A stretch of 64,000 nucleotides of DNA from Tetracentron sinense. Lineage: Eukaryota; Streptophyta; Magnoliopsida; Trochodendrales; Trochodendraceae. How positions within the stretch are numbered: the stretch's first letter is position 1; each line of letters starts with the position of its first letter. The translations under genes were made by a program, and so were the position numbers. The notes under the pieces were generated by a model. The model saw only the letters and a list, made by a program, of their open reading frames with translations, made no database searches and was not told the origin of the DNA. Below are positions 877 to 62,517 of this stretch, one piece after another. Location: contig CM026552.1 in the NCBI GenBank assembly GCA_015143295.1, positions 58,832,944 through 58,896,943 of the forward strand. The letters run 5' to 3'.

Positions 877-1020
877 GTACACGTTTGGAGTTTTTTTCTT
901 TATTCGTGATTGTTATGTTATGTTTTATTCCTTGTGTACGTACTTGGTATGCTATATATATATATACCTATGTGTATACACTGTTGATGCTTGAATTGAC
1001 TTAACTAGCTAAAATTTTAG
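877..1020 (+). other. Putative spliceosomal intron between gag and protease (A)
   Basis: The interval starts GTACAC and ends TTTTAG. It is T-rich, contains a TA repeat (near 952-966) and has TTAACTAG-like branch sequence near 1000. Removing its 144 bases joins CAAG to GAACC in phase 1, so the gag frame runs into the protease frame (Gln-Gly-Thr). Elements B, C and D have the same boundaries with lengths 135, 141 and 149. No RNA evidence is available here. Confidence 0.72.
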
Positions 1021-4345: not shown

Positions 4346-4433
4346 GTTTTTGTATAAGTTTGTATATGACTGGTAATTTTCTTTTTGGTTTGTAATGCAA
4401 GTAGCGTCTAAATTTTGAGGATGAAATTTTTGT

Positions 4434-4445
4434 AAGGGGGGAGGA
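4434..4445 (+). promoter_or_regulatory. Polypurine tract (A)
   Basis: A run of A/G ending AAGGGGGGAGGA lies directly before the TGTAG that opens the LTR. It would prime plus-strand DNA synthesis. D has the same tract at 22803-22814. Confidence 0.85.
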
Positions 4446-4660
4446 TGTAGAGCCCCGGACCTTTTCACATTCAATGCATGACACTTTCGTTGCCATTTTG
4501 CCTTTAAAGAGGTATAATTAATAAATAAGGAAGAAATTGGAAATTCCGAAATCTTAGAAATGTTCTTTTTCGAAGTACGAACCCAACGCAAGTTGAATCG
4601 TCAAAATCGGACGAACGAGTCAAAAGATATGGCCAAAACAGTCTGGACCTGCAGGCAATC

Positions 4661-4737
4661 ATAGCTCGGAAGGCGCTAAGGACGTAGCTCGGAAGGCGCT
4701 AAGGACGTGGCTCGGAAGGCGCTAAGGACGTAGCTCT
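4661..4737 (+). repeat. 23-bp tandem repeat in LTR A
   Basis: Three copies plus a partial copy of a unit reading TAGCTCGGAAGGCGCTAAGG followed by ACG. It occupies the LTR position where other families carry CGATCG palindromes. E and J2 have the same unit. Confidence 0.85.
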
Positions 4738-4799
4738 GATCACGTGCTCTGACAACGTACTCTGATAACGTAGCTCGAGCTCTGATAACGTATACGTTG

Positions 4800-4885
4800 T
4801 GCATCCGTTGTGCAACAGCAACAACGGGTACATTGTACAGCAACAACGGGCACGTTGTACAGCAACAACGGGCACGTTGTACATA
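4800..4885 (+). repeat. About 22-bp tandem repeat in LTR A
   Basis: Three to four copies of TTGTACAGCAACAACGGGCA with CG appended. TTGTACA and GTACAAC give internal dyad symmetry. Confidence 0.75.
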
Positions 4886-4929
4886 AGACAACGGACAACG
4901 AGCTCAGCACTATGCACAACACAACGGAC

Positions 4930-5155
4930 AACGTGTTCAACACTGTTCACAGCACAATGTGTTCAGCACTGTTCACAGCACAACGTGTTCAGCACTGCTC
5001 ACAGCACAACGTGTTCAGCACTGTTCACAGCACAACGTGTTCAGCACTGTTCACAGCACAACGTGTTCAGCACTGTTCACAGCACGACGTGTTCAGTACT
5101 ATTCACAGCACAACGTGTTTGGCACTGTTCATAGCCCAACGTGTTCAGCACTCAT
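4930..5155 (+). repeat. 26-bp minisatellite in LTR A
   Basis: Eight full copies and one partial copy of a 26-bp unit beginning AACGTGTTCAGCACTGTTCA and ending CAGCAC. E carries 11 full copies and J2 about six, so copy number varies between otherwise similar LTRs. The period is not a multiple of three and the long reading frames across it are by-products of the repeat. Confidence 0.93.
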
Positions 5156-6062
5156 GTTTTGCAGAAATTTCAGTAAGGGTATTATGGTCTTTTGGTCGGT
5201 TCACTCTTACCTTAAGAGTTTAACCCGAGCCTTTAGGGCTTCATTTTCGACACTTAGAGAGATTGGGAGATAAGAAGAGAGGAGAGGGCGATTCCTAAAC
5301 CTAGGGTTTCCATTTTGGAGAGAAATCAAGGGGTTTGTGAACCCACACTCAACTCAAGCCCATTTTTCTTCAAGATCAAGGCACAAACTCGTGAGGAGCA
5401 TCTCCTCAAGCTAGGGCAGCAACTCACAGTCGTTTTTGGAAGGGGTTTCTCCCCTCATTGTTCAAGGTCGGTACTTCTTGCTACCCTCCTAGGTATAGTT
5501 CCTCTTTCCCCTTTATTTCTCTTTATTTTCCTTTATTTACACATGTGCTATGAGATGGATGGCTGTGAATGGTGAATGGAGATGGAATGGGCGACTGGAT
5601 GCCAATGGTTGTGTTGTGATGATTATAATGGGGAGGGCATTGTTCCAATAATGAACATACATGTATGATTTGAGTAAAACCCATCTAGAAAAGCATGTTG
5701 TAGGGTAAATCGATAATGAACACACCATGTTTGATGAAATGCCAAGGTGAATAAAGTGAGTTGTAATTTAGGAAATGCATGCCTAATAAATTATGGATAT
5801 TGCTAGGGCCTATGATAGTGTGTTTTCTTGCTTTCCCTAAATGACATGAATATTACATTGCTCAATCATTGATGTTATATGTGTTGTGAAATCACCCAAA
5901 TGTCATATTTAAATCTAAATGCAAGTATGTACACGGTTCCCACGAGCACGGCATACATGACATGATTTATCAAGGTTTTCAAGAACATGGTTAGAGGTGG
6001 GACATAACCTACGATGTGTTTTACCTCGCTTTTCACAAGAAGAAAAGAACCAACATTTCACG

Positions 6063-6205
6063 AGGGGTCTCCCCTCACTCACAAGTGCATATCATGAAGA
6101 AGGGCCTCCCTTCCCTCGCAAGTACATACATATCATGAAGAAGGGTCTCCCTTCCCTCGCAAGTGCATTGCATAAAGAAGGGTCTCCCTTCCCTCTCAAG
6201 GCATC
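6063..6205 (+). repeat. Array of triloop hairpin repeats in LTR A
   Basis: Four imperfect units of about 30-37 bp, each with a short inverted repeat around a three-base loop: GAGGGG-TCT-CCCCTC once and GAAGGG-(C/T)CT-CCCTTC three times, joined by CGCAAGTGCAT-like linkers. The A-T to G-C exchange in the second stem pair is compensatory. The same array occurs at the same place in D, C, E, H, I and J2. Confidence 0.82.
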
Positions 6206-6504
6206 TCTCAAGCGCATCTCACAAGGATATCTCACAAGTTACATGATCACAAGCAAGCACGCATGACATGCATGACATGACACGTACGACACGCTCGACA
6301 AGATCAAGTAAGACAAACACGACAAGCTTTCAAGTACGAAAAGATATTTCAAGCCAAGTCAAGTGCACGATGTTTTCAAGAGGTTTTATCGGCTTTCTAC
6401 GAAATACAAGCATGATTATAAATTGTTTTACTTCCTTGTATGATATGAATTGTTTCCTGCTTTATGTATGCTATCCGTATGCTATGACTGTTGGTTAGTG
6501 CTTA

Positions 6505-6536
6505 GTACCCACTGAGTATTCCATGCTCAGTCGTAC
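6505..6536 (+). other. Conserved LTR stem-loop with covariation (A)
   Basis: Outer GTAC/GTAC pair, inner stem ACTGAGTAT, loop TCC, 3' arm ATGCTCAGT. Other LTRs have GCTGAG and CTCAGC; here both ends changed together (G to A and C to T), keeping the pair. It lies 5 nt before the small ORF. Confidence 0.8.
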
Positions 6537-6541
6537 TTCTT

Positions 6542-6658
6542 ATGTCGGCAGGTTCTGAGGGAGCTGCTGCTCCATTTGATGTTTGTGCTCCTGGTCCATG
6601 GTTGGAGGAGTACGTCGAGGAGCCTTTGGAGGAAACTCCAGTAGAGGGTTACCATTAG
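6542..6658 (+). CDS. Conserved LTR small ORF, 38 aa (A copy)
   Basis: Starts MSAGSEGAAAPFDVCAPGPW and ends at TAG after a Glu-rich tail. The core FD(V/I)CxPxPWxEE(E)Y is shared by all Tekay-type LTRs here. This copy lacks one Glu codon relative to J2 by an in-frame 3-nt deletion. No signal peptide or membrane segment; strongly acidic. Function unknown. It would lie in the transcript leader (5' LTR) or the 3' untranslated part. Translation is an inference from codon conservation only. Confidence 0.55.
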   Translation: MSAGSEGAAAPFDVCAPGPWLEEYVEEPLEETPVEGYH

Positions 6659-6961
6659 GTGGTTGTAGATTCTGAGTGGATTAGCTGTGGTGAGAAGAGA
6701 GATTATATCCATGTATTTTGGCGGGTCTGTCCGCACTTTCTTTTGGTTACTTTTTGTATAAACTTGGATTTCCATGTGTATATACTTAGAGGCTTGTTAG
6801 ACTTCCACTATGCTATGTTAGAGTATGTTTCCGCTGTTTATATCCTCTATTGTATATGCTCTGTGGGTTTTTGCAGGTTGGTTTGTCAAGCAAGTCATGT
6901 AAGCCATGATTAGTCGTCCAAAGTTCACTCTAACTCCTAGGGTGGGTTTTGGGTCGCGACA

Positions 6962-8265
6962 GTGAGAGGTGTAGCCAAACTGGAGAATCCCTCCACAAAT
7001 TTCCGATAGTAGCCTGCCAATCCGAGGAAACTACGTATTTCCGTGACGCTCTTGGGGCTCTCCCAACTCATGACTGCCTCAACCTTGGCTGGATCTACAG
7101 AAATATCCTCGACCGACACTACGTGGCCTAGGAATGCCACCTTCTCCAACCTGTATTCGCACTTACTCAATTTGGCATATAGCCTATACTATCTCAACAT
7201 CTCCAGAGCAAAGCGGAGGTCTCGTGTGTGATCTTCCCGTGTCTGGGAATAGACCGAATTGTCATCAATGAATACAATCACGCATCGATCCAAATACGAT
7301 CGGAACACCCAGTTCATCAAATCCATGAATGCCGCCGGTGCATTCGTAAGCCCAAAAGGCATGACAAGGAACTCGTAGTGCCCATACCGAGTCCTGAAAG
7401 CCGTCTTCAGAACATCTTCCGACTTGATCTTTAACTGATGATACCCCGATCTAAGATTAATCTTGGAGAAGAACCTCGCTCCCTTTAGTTGGTCGAACAA
7501 GTCATCTATCCCTGGCAAGGGATAACGATTCTTGATAGTTACCTTGTTCAACTGACGGTAGTCTATACATATTCTCATCGACCTGTATTTTTTCTTCACA
7601 AAGAGGACCGGAGCCCCCCACGGTGACACACTTGGTTGGATGAAACCAAGTTGTTGTAACTCCTCAATCCGTTTCTTCAATTCTTCAAGCTCTATAGGGG
7701 CCATTCTATATGGTGCCCTTGAAATCAAAGCTGTACCCGGAGCAAGCTCTATAGCAACCTCGATCTCTCTATCAGGAGGTAATCCGGGAAGTTCTTCTGG
7801 GAACACATCTAAGAACTCACTCACAACCGGAATGGCCAAAGAGTTCAGTGCCTCTGGGTTTGCTATGCTCAAAGCCGCGAGGTGAGCAATGTCCCTTTCT
7901 CTCAATCCTCGAAAATGAAAAGGCTTAGCTCCTTCCGGGTTAAAGTTCACCATCTTTTCATAACACGCAACATGACCGTGGTGGTTTTCCAACCAATCCA
8001 TCCCTAGGATGACATCAAAATCCAAGTCTTGGAAATCTAGGACGATGAGATCGGCTAACAGTTCATTCTCCCCCACTTGAACCACACTATCTCTGAATAT
8101 CTTGTCCGTGTCAACTGACTTACCGAGTGGAGTTGTAATGGTCAACTCCCGCTCTAACGGAGTAGCCTTAGTCGAAAAGCCCTTTGCAAAACTGAGGGAA
8201 ACAAATGAGTGAGTGGATCCTGTGTCTATCAACACTCGGGCGAGACACTCATTCACTAATAAGGC
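6962..8265 (-). pseudogene. pol: pro-pol fragment of element B
   Basis: From the intron acceptor: protease ([13 protein letters not shown], about 8190-8235), then RT with [16 protein letters not shown] (about 7530-7575) and active-site segment FIDDNSVYS (about 7250), where other copies have DDILVYS. The frame is open from 8256 to 7189, then a stop; reading continues in another frame as [19 protein letters not shown]... to about 6962, where A begins. RNase H, integrase and chromodomain are outside the window. Confidence 0.9.
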
Positions 8266-8400
8266 GCCTGTGCGATTAAGTAACTAAGATCAGTAGATTT
8301 CAAACAATAACAAGCATCATACATAGGTAACCCGTAGTATAAATAGCCATATATCAACCATAGAAAATTCTCACAACTTAAACTCTAAATTCTTGCGTAC
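8266..8400 (-). other. Putative gag-pol intron (B)
   Basis: On the minus strand it starts GTACGC after a conserved AAG and ends CACAG before GCGCC, 135 bp. Exon joining gives the same phase-1 Gly codon as in A, C and D. The upstream Gln codon is TAA in this copy. Confidence 0.7.
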
Positions 8401-9599
8401 CTTACACAACATCGTCGGATGCACGTGCGTCCCTCTCGGATAAGGCAAAGACTCTGCCCTGGTTGGCTGGGCAAGGAGGCCGAGTAGATTGTGAGGCCCT
8501 CGAAGCCTGGGAAGAGCTAGGCTAGAATGTCTGCCTAATCAGGGGCCTTCTCCCCGAAGACTGAGCTGGAAAATGACGTCGGGGACAGTCTCTAACCATG
8601 TGGCCATGGTCACCATAATGGAAGCAACTTCCTGTAATCCTCCGACATTCTCCCGCTGGATGCCTCCTTCCACAAAGAGTGCAGACATCATTCGAATAGG
8701 GGGAAGGAGCATATGAGGTGGCCAGGCGAAAGGCCGGTGGAGGAAAAGGGCAGGGAGCCTGTGGTGCTGAATACATCCTCTGTGACTGAGCTAGCCCTGC
8801 GGACTGATACAAGCTAGTCCTTGCTCTTTTCTCCCCTGAACTACTTGACTGTCCTTTCTCCATTCCTCTTCTTTTAAAGAACTCCTAGGAGTTCGACTCG
8901 GCCAAAAGTGCCTTGTCCACCACTTCTGAGTATGTCTCATGTCTAAACATCGAGACTCGGTCCTTGAGGTAGGCCTTCAATCCTCTCAAATTTTTTGGCT
9001 TTTATAGCCTTGGTCGCTATCATATGTGGAGCAAACCGAGATAGCTCCGAAAACTTAGCCTCATAAGCTACTACTGACATATTACCTTGCTCCAAGATAA
9101 TGAACTCCACTTCCATCTTCTCTTTCATCCTGATCGAGAAGTACTTCTTGTTGAAAATGTCCAAGAATTCCTCTCAAGTCCAGTCTTGACCTTGTCGGGT
9201 CAACTCTCGAGTCTGAAGTGTGGACTTCCACCAATGATCGGCCTCACCTTCAAGCATGAAGGTGGCCCAAGTAACCCTTTCCGCCTCCGTAGGCGCCAAT
9301 ACAGAGAATATCTTTTCTAATTGCCGAATCCATCCTTCGGCAACAAGCGGGTCAGTACTCCCACAAAAGGTTGGAGGCCACATCCTCCGGAAAGCCTCTA
9401 TTCCAGCTTGTGCTTGATTAGGAGGAGCCGGTATAAGTGCGGCATTAGGCGGAGGGGCCGGTTGCCTTACCGCTAGCATAGCCAAGGTCTTAGCTATTGA
9501 AGTGAAAGCTTGGGCAAAGTCGGGTTGATCATCACCCGATGGAGCATCACCTTCATTGCCCTTTGTGTTGTACCTGTGACCCCAGGTATTGCGTCTCAT
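8401..9599 (-). pseudogene. gag: gag of element B (stops and frameshift)
   Basis: Start ATG at 9599 (MRRNTWGHRYNTKGNEG), homologous to the MRRGTRGRG start in D. The capsid region includes PPTFCGSTDPLVAEGWIRQ and HHWW-like HWWKS. A Trp codon is TGA near 9171. A frameshift follows near 8945-9000. The nucleocapsid region from 8863 is Pro/Ser-rich with CTLCGRRHPAGEC and a zinc knuckle CFHYGDHGHMVRDC in which the second Cys is Tyr. At the 3' end NQGRVFAL keeps Arg where A and C have a stop. Confidence 0.88.
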
Positions 9600-9931
9600 A
9601 ATTTCTCCTAAGAACGACAATACAACATGAGTCTACCTTGCATACGCATTTAGGAATAGTTCACAATTTACTCAATACATATTCATCAAGCATATTTACT
9701 AAGCACAAATCATGCACACATGGTATAAAATACAATATCATAACATACAATCCGTGTTCCTAGCGTAGGACTCTAAGTTCGGTCGAAGTTCAACCTGTTT
9801 TGACTAAGACTAATTTCTTAGTCTATACATGGAATACAACCCTTTTATAACATCTAATTCCTTGTTCACGTATGGTATCGAGTACTAAGTGACCTTAGGG
9901 ACTCTAATGCCTAGAGCTCTAATACCACCTC
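9600..9931 (-). promoter_or_regulatory. Primer binding site and leader of element B
   Basis: On the minus strand, four bases after the LTR end, 9927-9916 reads TGGTATTAGAGC, one change from the TGGTATCAGAGC seen in D. This is the complement of the initiator tRNA-Met 3' end, which primes minus-strand DNA synthesis. The remaining leader to the gag ATG shows no ORF. Confidence 0.82.
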
Positions 9932-10212
9932 TGTCGCACCGTAAAATACCCCCTAGGAGTTAAGGAATACTTTAGGTGTGACTATACGTACCTGCCAAAC
10001 CATCCTGTAATGAACAAGATAATTACAGTACTAAACAATGATAATCAGAGCGCGGAAGCTAAACATATTCATCAAGCGTAAACTAACTTTCTTCTAAGAT
10101 TTCCAAAATAGTATTCCAAGTTAACAAATATACAAAACATGTCTAAGTCTAAGGTGGACAGGTCCACCTATCAAAATGTCAAAATACATAAGCACCCTCT
10201 CGTACTCTCCCC

Positions 10213-10353
10213 TCAACAGTAGTCGAGGTACGGCCAAACATCAAGGTCTCGGTCTGCCTGAGACTGCAGTGGGATATACAGCTCTCTCTCCTCTATATAC
10301 TCTTCCTCGACCCAAGGCTTCGGGTAGAGGGCTCCCTCAGTACCTGCCGACAT
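10213..10353 (-). CDS. Conserved LTR small ORF, long form, 46 aa (B copy)
   Basis: Starts MSAGTEGALYPKPWVEEEY and ends with RDLDVWPYLDYC before TGA. The N-terminal FDxC motif is absent, but PWVEEEY is intact. The C-terminal RDLDxWPYxxY block is shared with J1 and G, and partly with M. The frame is uninterrupted although flanking DNA differs widely from the A and D families. Function unknown. Confidence 0.55.
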   Translation of the reverse strand: MSAGTEGALYPKPWVEEEYIEERELYIPLQSQADRDLDVWPYLDYC

Positions 10354-10389: not shown

Positions 10390-10645
10390 AAGCTACTAGC
10401 TAACCATAACAATAATGAACACAACACCGGTAATACAGTACAAAGTAGAAATCAGAGCATCACAAAAGAAATAGCATAAGACATGGTACAGTGCAATCAT
10501 CTTGACGTGCGTGCATGAATGCGAAAACTCCAATAAAACTCATGCTTGAAAATCCGTTTCATGTCTCGGTATGGCTTGTAGAAATCATGTATGCGTGCAT
10601 GCATGAATGCCTTGTCATCATCTTGTAACCTTGCATCTTGTAACT

Positions 10646-10850
10646 TGTGAGCCAGAGGCTAGCACCCAAATCTCCCTGGGCTGCCAACCTCCTTGATATA
10701 TGGTTTTCTTGTGAGCCAGAGGCTAGTACCCGAATGTCCCTGGGCTACCAACCTCCTTGACAGTATGTGATTTTTATTACTTGTTTAGTTTTCTTGTGAG
10801 CCAGAGGCTAGTACCCGAATCTCCCTGGGCTACCAACCTCCTTGTCATGC
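10646..10850 (-). repeat. Tandem array unique to B/J1 LTR family
   Basis: Three units of about 50-75 bp with the plus-strand core TTGTGAGCCAGAGGCTAGTA, then CCCGAATGTCCCTGGGCTAC and CAACCTCC. It occupies the place of the triloop hairpin arrays in the other families. J1 has four units at 52720-53005. Confidence 0.85.
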
Positions 10851-11831
10851 AGTATTTTCTTGTTGGTTATTATATGCACATGCTCTTGAAATCTCAGTTC
10901 CTGCTAACATGCGTGCTCGTGTACGTGCCAATAGTGACAATCATGGGAATGAAGATAACAAAAGAGATATTGCATTTCATTTAGATTCATAGCATATCAT
11001 GTAAACATTTAGGTGATCAACATAGCATTTGGTCGAGTCATCATTTACAAGAACAATTACATAAGGCTTACATCCAATTCCTTTAAGTCATCATTTCATA
11101 GGTTAGGCATTTATCAAACACATAACATATGATGTCCATTAATATTTCATCTTCTTCTTCTTTAATGTATATTTTTCATCCAATCACATAAGGGTAAGTT
11201 TATTATTTGTAAAATGCCCATCCTCCATTTTCCATTTCCCACACCACATATATCACACATCATACATTTGGCATCCCATCGCCTCAATCAACATTTCATA
11301 CACATCCATATCCTTTTTCCTTATCTTGTTTATATTTATTGAGATGATACAATTCATAGGAAAGGAAAGCATAATATAAAGAATCACCATTTACAATAGA
11401 AAACCTAGGTTATTGCTAGGGAAAGTTAGTAGGGTGTACTAACCTTGAATCAAGGCTTGATCTTGGTTGTAAACCTTGATTGGAGCTCCAACTTGCAAGA
11501 AGGACTCTTGCTTGAGGAAGGCTTGAGTGGGAAGGAAACCCTCTTGAAAATAGCTTGGAGAATGCTGTCCTTGCTTGAGAGAGACTTCCCCACGAGTTTG
11601 AGGCTTGGCTTTGAGAGATCCAAGCAAAAGGAATGATCTTGGGTGTTTAAACCCTTGATTTCTTCACCAAGGATGCCCTAGGAGAAAACCCTCTTCTTCT
11701 CCTCCCCTTTCTCTCTAAATGTTCTAAGTTTAGTGAATAGGGCCCTAAGGCTCTGGCAAAGCCTTATAAGAAAGGGTTTAACCCCCAAAAGATGAAATAG
11801 CCCTTACTGAAATTTCTGCAAAAATGCGAAG

Positions 11832-12016
11832 ACCGAGTGATCGGTGGTTATGACCGATCGATCGGTTACCTACCGAGTGATCGGTGTTCTAACCGAGTGA
11901 CCAGTCAAAAACATGCTCTCTAAAAAAATTTCCCATACAAAATTTTTGACCAGTCGATAGCTACCGATCGATCGGTTTTGGACCGATCGATCGCTGAATG
12001 GACCGAGCGATCTGTG
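11832..12016 (-). repeat. CGATCG palindrome cassette in LTR B
   Basis: Six or more variants of CCGAKYGATCGGT, including the perfect 14-bp palindrome ACCGATCGATCGGT near 11965. Spaced about 20-60 bp and CpG-rich, flanked by the conserved TTTGCAGAAATTTCAG and CCATATCTTTTGACTC blocks of the LTR. Confidence 0.85.
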
Positions 12017-17646: not shown

Positions 17647-17995
17647 GAAGTGGTATCAGAGCTTAGGCTTTAGGTCTTTAGGGTCACTTAGAATCTATGC
17701 CACGGCTTGACAAGAGCATATGTCAGGAAACAAGTTAGGAATGAAGGAAGTCGGAAGCGAGTCGTGATCCAAGTGAAGGACTAAACTTTAGTCTTAGTCA
17801 AAATGGTCAACCAAGTATGAGTCTTAGGGAAGCTAGAACACCAAGGTGTAATATTATAAATACACCGATGGTTGTGATGCGATGTATATTAGTATTATAC
17901 AACAAATACAAATTGAATTATTGTGCAATGGAACTGTGATAAATTGTGGTTTCAAGTTAGACTCATGTGGTGCTATTGTTCTCAGGACTTTAGTC
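17647..17995 (+). promoter_or_regulatory. Primer binding site and leader of element D
   Basis: TGGTATCAGAGC at 17651-17662, four bases after the LTR, is complementary to the 3' end of initiator tRNA-Met. The leader to the gag ATG at 17996 has no notable ORF; the bases just before the ATG include TTCTCAGG, a possible splice acceptor. Confidence 0.9.
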
Positions 17996-19244
17996 ATGAG
18001 GCGGGGCACACGGGGTCGTGGACCACACACTAGAGCTTCATCTTCTTCTAGAGATGAGGATGAGCAGCCGGACCTCTCATGGGTCTTAGGCTCTATTGCT
18101 GAGACTCTTGCCATTCTGGCAGCTCGGCAGACTATACCTTCTTCGGCGGCACCTACTCCACCGCCTTCGGCTCCAGTACATCGTACAGCTGAGGTTGAAG
18201 CATTCAGGAGATTGAGGCCTCCATCATTCCATGGGAGTGTGGACCCTCTTGCTGCGGAGGCGTGGATCCTCCAGATGGAGAAGATCTTTCCGGTCCTCTC
18301 GCCCATAGAGGAGGATAGAGTAGCATGGGCTGTTTTCATGCTAGAGGGGGAGGCACATCACTAGTGGTTGTCCGCATTGAGGACACGGGATTTGACTATG
18401 CAGGGTCAACCTTGGACTTGGGAGGAGTTCAAGGATACTTTTTATAAGAAGTACTTTCCTGTTGGAGCACGGGAAAAGAAAGAAAGAGAGTTCATTGACC
18501 TAGAGCAAGGTTCGATGACTGTGGCCGCTTATGAGGCTAAGTTCTCGGAACTCTCTAGATTTGTGCCTCACATGATTGCTACTGAGGTAAGGAAGGCGAG
18601 GAGATTTGAGCAAGGGCTCAAGGATGTCATTATGGAGAAAGTATCGGCTTTCAGGCACGCTACTTATCCAGAAGTAGTAGACAAGACCTTATTGATTGAG
18701 GTAAATTCGGAGGCGGTGTCCAAGAAGAGGGAGTTGGCGAGAGGCCAACCTAGTAGTTCAGCACCTCCAGAGAGGCGGGCTCGTACCAGCCCTTATCAGT
18801 ACACGTGGCCAGCACCACCGATGAGGCCATCTTATGCGCCTCCAGTTCCACAGCCGTACATACCTCAGGCACAGCGACCTCAGGCTCTTCTAGCTCCACA
18901 ACCAGTTGCTCCTCAGACGGTGAGGTATGCTCCACCTCTTGCCCCTCCGACCTATACACACGAGGTCTGCACTTCGTACAGCCGAAGGCATCCAGCAGGA
19001 GATTGCCGAAGGGCACCAGGTGGATGTTTTCATTGTGGTCGCCAGGGCCACGTGATCAAGGATTGCCGTAGTCGGCATTTACCAGGCCAGTCACAGGGGA
19101 TTAGACCCCCAGCACGCCCAGCAGGATCATACCAGCGGTCTTCCCAGACTACCCGGTCTACACCTCCACCTCGCTAGGCGAACTAGGGGCGAGTTTTTGC
19201 CTTAATAGAGGGTGATGCACTTGCATCTGACGATGTAGTGCAAG
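17996..19244 (+). pseudogene. gag: gag of element D
   Basis: Start chosen at ATG 17996 (MRRGTRGRGPHTRASSSSR), conserved with B. Capsid: FRRLRPPSFHGSVDPLAAEA and WAVFMLEGEAHH, then TAG in place of Trp (18362-18364), and an open frame 18368-19177. Pro-rich spacer (about 18750-18960), CTSYSRRHPAGDC, and one zinc knuckle CFHCGRQGHVIKDC with all CCHC ligands intact (about 19022-19063). Two TAG codons follow (19175-19177 and near 19184), while the codon that is TGA in A and C is CGA here. Ends at the intron donor. Confidence 0.9.
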
Positions 19245-19393
19245 GTACGCAGTTGTAGTTTATTAAATTATCCTTAAAATATTTTGTTATGTATTATTCG
19301 ATTGTGTACATATATGGGATGATTATATGTATATATATACCGATATTTATACGATGTTGATGCATGGATTGACTTAGCTAGCTAAAATTTCAG
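19245..19393 (+). other. Putative gag-pol intron (D)
   Basis: 149 bp, GTACGC to TTTCAG, then GAACCGTACTAG. The length is not a multiple of three and the frame entering from gag stops within 15 bases (TTG TAG), so Pol could only be made after removal of this interval. Confidence 0.72.
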
Positions 19394-24645: not shown

Positions 24646-24765
24646 ATGTCGGCAGGTGATAGCAGAGCGGCTGCTCCATTTGATGTCTGTGCTCCGAGCC
24701 CTTGGGTGGAGGAGGAGTACGTTGAGGAGCCTGTGGAGGAACCTCAGGGTGAGGGTTATTATTAG
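24646..24765 (+). CDS. Conserved LTR small ORF, 39 aa (D, 3' LTR)
   Basis: Starts MSAGDSRAAAPFDVCAPSPW, continues VEEEYVEEPVEEPQGEGYY and stops at TAG. Intact, unlike the copy in the 5' LTR of the same element. Compared with J2, most differences are third-position or conservative, and the FDVCAP and PWVEEEYVEEP blocks are kept. Function unknown. Confidence 0.58.
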   Translation: MSAGDSRAAAPFDVCAPSPWVEEEYVEEPVEEPQGEGYY

Positions 24766-38831: not shown

Positions 38832-38951
38832 CTAGTAATAACCCGCTGCCGAAGGTTCCTCTACAGGTTCCTCGACATACTCCTCCTCCATCTAAGGGCT
38901 CGAAGCACAGATATCGAAAGGAGCAGCTGCTCCGCAGTCACCTGTCGACAT
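38832..38951 (-). pseudogene. LTR small ORF with Trp-to-stop (H)
   Basis: MSTGDCGAAAPFDICASSP, then TAG in place of the invariant Trp, followed by MEEEYVEEPVEEPSAAGYY and TAG. Apart from the stop, the frame is the same length as in D, C, E and J2. Confidence 0.7.
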
Positions 38952-52295: not shown

Positions 52296-52436
52296 TCAAC
52301 AGTAGTCGAGGTATGGCCACAGGTCAAGGTCTCGGTCCGCCTGAGACTGCAGTGGAATAGACGGCTCTCTCTCCTCAATATACTCTTCCTCGACCCAAGG
52401 CTCTGGGTCGAGGGCTCCCTCAGTACCTGCCGACAT
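52296..52436 (-). CDS. Conserved LTR small ORF, long form, 46 aa (J1)
   Basis: MSAGTEGALDPEPWVEEEY, then IEEREPSIPLQSQADRDLDL, WPYLDYC and TGA. Same length as in B, with substitutions (YPK to DPE, L to P, V to L) but no indel or stop, in a solo LTR of a different insertion. Confidence 0.57.
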   Translation of the reverse strand: MSAGTEGALDPEPWVEEEYIEEREPSIPLQSQADRDLDLWPYLDYC

Positions 52437-56177: not shown

Positions 56178-56523
56178 GTGGTTGTAGATTCTGAGTGGAT
56201 TAGCTGTGGTGAGAAGAGAGATTTTATCCATGTATTTTGGCGGGTCTGTCCGCACTTTCTTTTGGATTCCTTTTGTATAAACTTGGATTTGCGTATGTTT
56301 ATACATAGAGGTTAGGTAGACTTCCGCTGTGCTTTATGGTTATGTTTCCGCTATAATGTCCTCTATTGTATATGCTCTGTGGGTTTTGCAGGTTAGTTGT
56401 CAAGCAAGTCGTGATTAGTCGTCCAAAGTTCACTCTAACTCCTAGGGTGGATTTTGGGTCGCGACAAGTTTAACGCCCAAAAGACAAAAATGGCCTTACA
56501 AAAATTTCTGCAAAACACGGGGC

Positions 56524-59743: not shown

Positions 59744-59878
59744 ATGTCGGCAGGTACTGAGGGAGCTGCTACTCCATTCGACATTTGTTCTCCTGGCCCA
59801 TGGGTGGAAGAGGAGTACATTGAGGAACCTGTAGAGGAACCTCCCCGTAGAGGGCTACTACTAGGTGGTAGATTCTGA
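59744..59878 (+). CDS. LTR small ORF, 44 aa with shifted C-terminus (I)
   Basis: MSAGTEGAATPFDICSPGPW and VEEEYIEEPVEEPP match the core. One extra C after CCTCC then shifts the tail to RRGLLLGGRF and TGA, skipping the usual TAG. The first 34 codons are conserved. Confidence 0.5.
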   Translation: MSAGTEGAATPFDICSPGPWVEEEYIEEPVEEPPRRGLLLGGRF

Positions 59879-61129: not shown

Positions 61130-62121
61130 TGTAATGACCCCAAAATCTTACCTTGACCAAAATAGGACTTTGGGTCGCCACCTTTCTTAAACCAGCTTAA
61201 ATCTCATGACATCCAAGGCATACAACATGAGTCTCCAAAAATGAGAGTAATAAAATTTTGATATATAAAACCAAGTCATCCTGCTCAAGTCTATGGTCAA
61301 CATAAACAATCCACTATAAACAAAATAGTCTGATACACAATTACAAAGAAGTCTGATAAGCAACATCATCTAAGAGTCTATTACAATTCTCTTAACCGAA
61401 ACAAATGTAAACTAATAGGGGTAGCTATCAAAACCCCTGGCTCCGTCCTAGGAAGGCTCACCTTCTCCTTCTTTGACCTAAGCCTTCTCAATCCATGGCT
61501 CACTTACAAACTTGGGCTCCACACCTGCCAAGACAAAAGTCTGGCTGAGTACAAAAACACCTGGTATATATAAAATCCAATAGCATAATAAAATAATCAG
61601 AGTGCAGAAGAACATGTGCTCATATACATTATATCATCACCTTGACTCGTGTACTTGTGGAAACCTTAGACTTCGAAGACAACATACTTATGAGATCTTA
61701 TTCTTATGAGACCATGTGCTAATGAGATGCTTATGCTTATAAGTCTTGGAGCAGCTTATTCAGAACATGCACTTATTCAGATCCCTCATTGGGCTTATTC
61801 AGTCTGTCAAGCGTATGCAATGCTTATGCTTATGAGTTCTTGAGCAGCTTATTCAGATCATACACTTATTCAGATCCCTCATTAGGCTTATTCAGTCTGT
61901 CAGGCGTATGCAATGCTTATGCTTGTGGTCCACATGTGTGACTTGTGAGATTTTTACCTTAACATACATGTGAATTTGTGCATAAGTGTCGCAATTAACA
62001 CTCGAGTTGGTAATCGCTTAAATTCCGATCTCCCACCATGAAAACTCCACTATATTTTCCCATACCATATAGTTAGAGAATTCCCGGTTTGAAAGATTTT
62101 CCTCTAAGTTCTTACCTTCCC
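61130..62121 (-). repeat. Element N: partial, diverged LTR in copia K gag
   Basis: Left end TGTAATGACCCC resembles the TGTCGTGACCC termini of the Tekay-type LTRs. Contains the CTGGCTGAGTAC half of the stem-loop (near 61543) and, before it on the minus strand, a remnant of the small ORF (frame LAGVEPKFVSEPWIEKA, then stop, about 61527-61474). Two tandem units of about 93 bp (61728-61920; GCTTATTCAGATCCCTCATT). Cut at 62121 by M; the remainder is off-window. Confidence 0.72.
61728..61920 (-). repeat. About 93-bp tandem duplication in LTR N
   Basis: Two units beginning GCTTATGCTTAT and containing GAGCAGCTTATTCAG and CTTATTCAGTCTGTC, with about 8 differences, plus the start of a third. Confidence 0.85.
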
Positions 62122-62373: not shown

Positions 62374-62517
62374 TTAACAGAAGTCGAAGTCACGACACCT
62401 ATCTAACGATCCATCATCCTGATAGTGATCCATAGAAGGCTCCGGGTCGAAGTACTCTTCTTCTACCCAAGGCTCTGTACCACATAAATCGAAAGGAACC
62501 CGAACACCTACCGATGA
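62374..62517 (-). pseudogene. LTR small ORF, diverged, start codon lost (M)
   Basis: Minus strand frame: SSVGVRVPFDLCGTEPWVEEE, then YFDPEPS..., ending RDFDFC and TAA at 62374. The ATG position reads TCA after a local change. PFDxC, PWVEEEY and a RDxD near the C-terminus survive in the most divergent LTR of the set. Confidence 0.5.

Follow-up and report, generated by a model that had tools for sequence, protein, structure and literature searches.

A short reading frame deep inside the LTRs of plant Ty3/gypsy elements evolves as protein code and may be a terminal coding exon

LTRs are normally treated as non-coding, and the recurrence of a short open reading frame (sORF) in the LTRs of the 64,000-nucleotide stretch analysed here, hereafter the window, raised the question of whether this frame encodes a protein and, if so, from which transcript. 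The elements are Ty3/gypsy by the order of their domains (Retrotrans_gag, RVP_2, RVT_1, Integrase_H2C2 and SH3_Tf2-1, with rve below its cut-off), and no Chromo model was among the profile matches at E up to 0.01. We tentatively take them to be Tekay-type, from general resemblance and from the label used in the first-pass annotation of this DNA. That annotation had named 13 LTR places for the frame, which was borne out when each was read directly. Eight of them (A, B, D3, E, C, G, J1 and J2) carry intact open frames at exactly the coordinates that it had given, and the damage in D5, H, I, M and N was found as it had described. The 13 places are as follows.

6542..6658, + strand: LTR A, open sORF, frame read directly
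10213..10353, - strand: LTR B, open sORF, 46 aa
17234..17349, + strand: LTR D 5' copy (D5), one G lost directly after GGCAG
24646..24765, + strand: LTR D 3' copy (D3), intact, 39 aa
26396..26515, - strand: LTR E, sORF of 39 aa
30000..30119, + strand: LTR C, sORF of 39 aa
38058..38183, + strand: LTR G, sORF of 41 aa, query copy for a large diverse family (G-type)
38832..38951, - strand: LTR H copy, Trp codon reads TAG
52296..52436, - strand: LTR J1, sORF of 46 aa
56058..56177, + strand: LTR J2, sORF of 39 aa, acceptor ATAG and not GCAG
59744..59865, + strand: LTR I copy, tail shifted by one base
61415..61534, - strand: LTR N, decayed, with in-frame stops and no ATG, TCTTGGCAG/GT retained
62374..62517, - strand: LTR M, frame without ATG, 47 codons open, query copy for an ATG-less family (M-type)

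In LTR A the frame is situated some 2.1 kb from the start of the LTR, and its acidic peptide has the core (F)D(V/I/L)C..PW(V/I)EE(E/D)Y and in some types ends in WPY..Y. It can be aligned between LTRs that have strongly diverged elsewhere, in agreement with the persistence of the motif noted before. The in-frame 3-nt indel reported between A and J2 was recovered as one Glu codon that A lacks relative to J2; D5 also lacks one GAG codon. These are in-frame length differences, and frameshifted dead copies also occur, for example 4 of 38 in the M-type sample described below.

The first-pass annotation had proposed that the frame is coding and had offered dN/dS as the test, and by this test the proposal held. 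In a codon model of 12 rows, omega was 0.249 with lnL of -838.11, in agreement with an IQ-TREE GY fit, against -863.08 at omega 1 (2dlnL 49.9); N was absent and M included, the stop of H was masked, I was cut before its shift, D5 was taken after its deletion and the first four codons were dropped. On a tree made from LTR sequence outside the sORF (11 LTRs, M and N absent), the changes at codon positions 1, 2 and 3 were 33, 30 and 67, an excess at the third position that none of 20,000 within-codon permutations equalled; in the first 24 codons they were 23, 15 and 43 (p 0.00025). The excess was not reached in any of 1,115 overlapping windows of the flanking LTR sequence (maximum 0.6 vs 1.0 for the sORF). 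Pairwise dN/dS between LTR types was mostly 0.1-0.45 for pairs with unsaturated dS, no ratio being computable for the saturated pairs, and the closest pairs gave 1.5 (A-J2), 0.57 (A-E) and 0.48 (E-J2).

Genomic copies were sampled by their upstream flank DNA and not by the frame, which separates decay after insertion from selection in the source lineages. Among 38 M-type copies, variants found in at most two copies were synonymous/nonsynonymous in 19/58 cases and those found in at least four copies in 31/18; among 20 G-type copies the corresponding counts were 22/73 and 14/7 (Fisher p 3e-5 and 4e-4, respectively). The first four codons and the variants in exactly 3 copies were dropped, and the synonymous share expected of random changes is about 0.23. 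A stop or a shift marked 9 of the 38 M-type copies as dead, 29 having no internal stop or frameshift, and the same was true of 13 G-type copies among the 19 that were read in frame. Rare variants thus look neutral and shared ones are mostly synonymous, which argues that decay is neutral in dead copies and that the protein is maintained in active lineages. A pooled 60-copy set gave 12/76 for rare and 41/47 for shared variants and includes 40 G-type regions that are biased by their choice through protein similarity; 30 M-type loci were chosen in the same biased way, and of the variant counts this pooled one alone uses the G-type regions. There is very little room for doubt that the LTR frame is protein code whose amino acids are kept by purifying selection. 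The inverted repeat adjoining the frame and the conserved LTR sequence around it would also fit a conserved element that acts as RNA or DNA and is open by chance; such an element is highly improbable in view of the low omega, a third-position excess not seen in the flank windows and a synonymous excess restricted to shared variants, and the window from 4400 to 7000 gave no Rfam match at E up to 0.1.

First-look searches of the genome returned 27,088 candidates with the M query, 34,546 with the G query and 31,802 with the outside protein P0002, all being candidates and not counted copies, and 150 from each search were scored; among the 150 scored, P0002 reached 67% at best. Three outside proteins from short ENA contigs (P0001-P0003) keep ..APxPW(V/I)EE(D/E)YVEEP...WPY. 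In the protein database, query A1 retrieved P0001 only, P0001 retrieved itself and P0002, and query A2 retrieved P0001-P0003. Searches of Pfam with five peptides and of PDB gave no match, and IUPAC motif scans of viral contigs gave 0 matches.

The presence of a start codon was found to depend on the lineage. The sORF ATG is present at 11 of the 13 window places, in all 20 flank-sampled G-type copies (one by offset) and in 40 of 40 G-type copies picked by tblastn. It is present in none of the 38 flank-sampled M-type copies, where the place of ATGTCGGCAGGT reads TCATCGGCAGGT, and a conserved in-frame ATG is therefore not shared by every lineage that keeps the frame. A chance in-frame ATG lies seven codons upstream in 4 of the 38 M-type copies, two of these four being frameshifted (L112 and L113); the other 34 have none at that place, and window copy M has ACG there. 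The outside proteins have LAS, LAG and MAG in place of MSAG before the motif, and in P0001 and P0002 a methionine stands another four to five codons upstream. Hence the usual ATG is not required for selection on the frame in the M-type, and in most M-type copies translation would begin elsewhere or at a non-AUG codon. Of the earlier view of a self-contained ORF read from its own ATG, the coding part stands and the self-contained part does not, as all 38 M-type copies are without the ATG and yet their shared variants are mostly synonymous. A branch with no start codon at the usual place makes a spliced exon likelier than a free-standing peptide, and we consider it probable that the frame is a terminal exon rather than a free ORF.

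The sequence around the frame was examined in the LTRs, and the features of LTR A that bear on splicing are listed here (a slash marks the putative splice site).

5250..5466, + strand: leader, ATG-free, 5' end approximate, ends CAAG/GTCGGTAC
5467..6551, + strand: proposed intron, ATG-rich, from leader donor to sORF acceptor
6511..6531, + strand: inverted repeat ACTGAGTAT-TCC-ATGCTCAGT, directly 5' of the acceptor
6552: proposed exon start, after the acceptor AG (6550-6551), GGT codon split after base 1 (phase 1)
6871..6876, + strand: second acceptor-like TTGCAG/GTTGG, in U5

The constant feature at the start of the frame is YAG/GT, the signature of a predicted phase-1 splice acceptor. YAG is kept at all 13 window places and is followed by GT in 12 of them, D5 having lost a G. 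In the flank-sampled M-type copies the A is present in 38/38, the G in 36/38 and a pyrimidine at -3 in 37/38; in the G-type, with one of the 20 copies dropped (L157, offset), the -3 base is C in 9, T in 8 and A in 2, the A is present in 19/19 and the G in 15/19. Codon 3 of the G-type therefore varies at its second base and always has A at its third, the opposite of how a codon normally varies, and just what YAG requires. The inverted repeat beside the acceptor, (C)TGAGTAT-TCC-ATRCTCAG, occurs in LTRs of types A, B, G and M and is conserved with weak covariation; one-sided changes often leave it unpaired (A-C, C-A), so no structural claim is made for it. A second inverted repeat (GCGGGTCTGTCCGC / GGTGGACCTGTCCACC / GTGGGACTTGTCCAC) follows the sORF stop at 6721-6734, 56240-56253 and 10153-10168 (- strand) and in M-type LTRs, and its arms seem to change together between types.

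The leader has 0 ATGs in all 10 copies measured and ends in a donor-like AAG/GT that is conserved in A-, B- and M-type LTRs. Between it and the sORF lie 723-1190 nt with 37-65 ATGs (10 copies), the number of ATGs being above that of shuffles, and cap scanning would thus hardly reach the unspliced frame. In M-type LTRs the leader is preceded by a TATA box, near position 548 of their majority sequence. From this box the frame is probably located in R and not in U5, so that of the U5/R placement given earlier the R part probably stands and the U5 part probably does not. The leader was rejected as a coding partner exon, as it has no ATG and stops break its three frames in most copies. It could instead be spliced to a site just upstream of the frame, such as CTCAG/ in the inverted repeat's 3' arm; the sORF ATG would then be the first AUG in a short mRNA that ends within this LTR, and the product would be a free microprotein. 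Such an LTR mini-gene would explain the ATG kept at 11 window places and in the G-type samples, the ATG-free leader and its conserved donor. It would, however, require the M-type, selected with no ATG in 38 of 38 copies, to initiate at a non-AUG codon, and the outside proteins have other residues at the place of the Met. The absence of ATGs is also not rare in itself, as shuffles give none in 24-70% of cases per copy (P(0) 0.24-0.70), which makes it weak evidence in any single copy. Junction probes joining the leader to the sORF gave 0 matches in the genome, which also counts against the mini-gene, as did those joining the leader to U5. We therefore regard the mini-gene as rather unlikely.

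Because a terminal exon needs a coding partner upstream, the splice sites around gag are given below.

877..1020, + strand: gag/PR intron of the element before LTR A, donor GTGCAAG/GTACACG, phase 1
8268..8400, - strand: gag/PR intron of element B, donor phase 1
9597..9610, - strand: acceptor TTCTTAG/GAGAAATT directly before the gag ATG, element B
17984..17998, + strand: acceptor TTCTCAG/GACTTTAGTC directly before the gag ATG, element D
19245..19393, + strand: gag/PR intron of element D, donor phase 1

The gag/PR intron with its phase-1 G/GT donor was also found in the M-type element L045, and the M-type copy L043 (near 3790) lacks it precisely in comparison with L045 3641-3796. An intron-less gag/PR junction was found at 20 places in the genome at <=3 mismatches, the reversed-pattern control giving 0; many of these places are near-identical and may represent one event that multiplied. 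The exact loss in L043 together with the 20 junctions indicates that the gag/PR donor is really spliced, as at the gag/PR border of BARE1. By a plant donor score table this donor ranks 7th of 275 GTs in A, 3rd of 293 in D and 11th of 385 in L045; several GT sites score above it, and the table singles out no donor. Upstream, B, D and L045 have an acceptor YAG/GA 8-10 bases ahead of the first ATG of gag, consistent with a leader intron that would begin at the LTR donor; this acceptor is damaged in L043 (CTCGG). L045 has in addition a direct duplication at 2220-2340, in the leader between PBS and gag.

The best explanation that we can offer, for which the case is evenly balanced, is a coding terminal LTR exon whose 3' LTR copy would be spliced in phase to the gag donor. 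In the element transcript, the 3' LTR copy of the frame would be joined to an upstream coding exon, the partner donor being most likely the phase-1 gag/PR DVVQ-G/GT that is otherwise spliced to the PR acceptor. Splicing to the PR acceptor would yield Gag-Pol, and splicing to the 3' LTR would yield Gag with an acidic LTR-encoded tail and no Pol, as one route to an excess of Gag; gag would become the first ORF through a leader intron running from the end of the ATG-free LTR leader to the acceptor just before the gag ATG. Since the gag donor and the LTR exon are both phase 1, the frame would be kept as ...DDVVQ-G-(S/T/A/D)...PWVEEEY..., an agreement of phase that arises in 1 of 3 cases by chance. 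The genome was searched for gag-to-LTR junctions, and none was found for the A-type at <=1 mismatch (9 matches, all unspliced), for the M-type at <=3 mismatches (0 matches) or for the G-type at <=2 mismatches (0 matches). An RNA of this kind would be without PPT and U3, and an integrated copy of it is therefore not expected.

The terminal exon could also have another partner, such as a small exon within the LTR, a donor in pol or an adjacent host gene, as its exon character names no partner and several GTs outscore the gag donor. Against this, the LTR alignment from A position 5250 on (scored 72-nt windows outside U3) holds no second coding-like stretch, the maximum window excess being 0.6 vs 1.0, at which an exon of a few codons would escape, and no conserved, in-phase good donor was seen by eye near the end of pol. 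Another partner is thus improbable, and gag as the partner exon is a candidate for which we see equal weight on either side. The wider proposal, that each LTR of a large plant group is a coding terminal exon and that the choice of the gag donor between PR and a site about 5 kb away in the 3' LTR would set Gag against Gag-Pol and add a tail conserved outside this genome, is held slightly less firmly still.

Protein code inside the 3' LTR, expressed from spliced RNA, is known in MMTV sag and HIV nef, which are unlike the present frame in being retroviral, in encoding unrelated proteins, in lying mainly in U3 and in having their own AUG. In the CRM group A centromeric retrotransposons, the available text describes protein code partly in the chromovirus 3' LTR, with the CR motif, as a coding region that runs on into the LTR (PMC3059260). 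In A and D, in contrast, the pol coding region ends some 100 nt short of the LTR and does not run on into it, and the sORF is found about 2.1 kb inside LTR A, behind YAG/GT; the likeness concerns the location of the code, peptides aside. BARE1 is a plant LTR element with one polyprotein ORF in which splicing at the gag/PR border gives Gag only; as far as the available text goes, removal of its 104-nt intron leads to a stop three residues after Gag, with no LTR exon (PMC3735527). The facultative intron of Ogre, in the polyprotein region of a plant Ty3/gypsy element of another lineage, lies between GAG-PROT and RT, and an LTR-coded tail is unmentioned in the available part of that source (PMC6317226). 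The spliced mRNA of Cer1 CERV joins gag-frame exons of an LTR retrotransposon to a downstream exon; it encodes a 517-aa nematode protein, and the available text places no exon in the LTR (PMC10309623). Short GAG isoforms are described in sunflower, where Tekay elements are absent from the expressed set in the available text (PMC7730604), and 'Tekay' and 'within the LTR' are absent from the available main text of a review on the additional ORFs of plant LTR elements (PMC7264820). Compared with all these systems, the present exon is short, lies deep in the LTR and has no obligatory start codon. A coding exon in Tekay LTRs was not named in the open-access literature searched, and a selected protein sequence inside the LTRs of a very common family of plant elements seems to have gone unnoticed there. 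If true, a Gag tail obtained by 3' LTR splicing would allow single-ORF chromoviruses to produce Gag in excess of Pol.

Other repeats were seen in the LTRs. Clusters of CCGATCGATCGGT / CCGAGTGATCGGT-type palindromes occur at window 11830-12000 and in the U3 of M-type LTRs, tandem GTTCAGCACTGTTCACAGCACAAC-type repeats occupy 4915-5150 in the U3 of LTR A, and a GAGCCAGAGGCTAGTACCCGAATCTCCCTGGGCTACCAACCTCC-type unit is present in three copies at 10640-10850 in LTR B.
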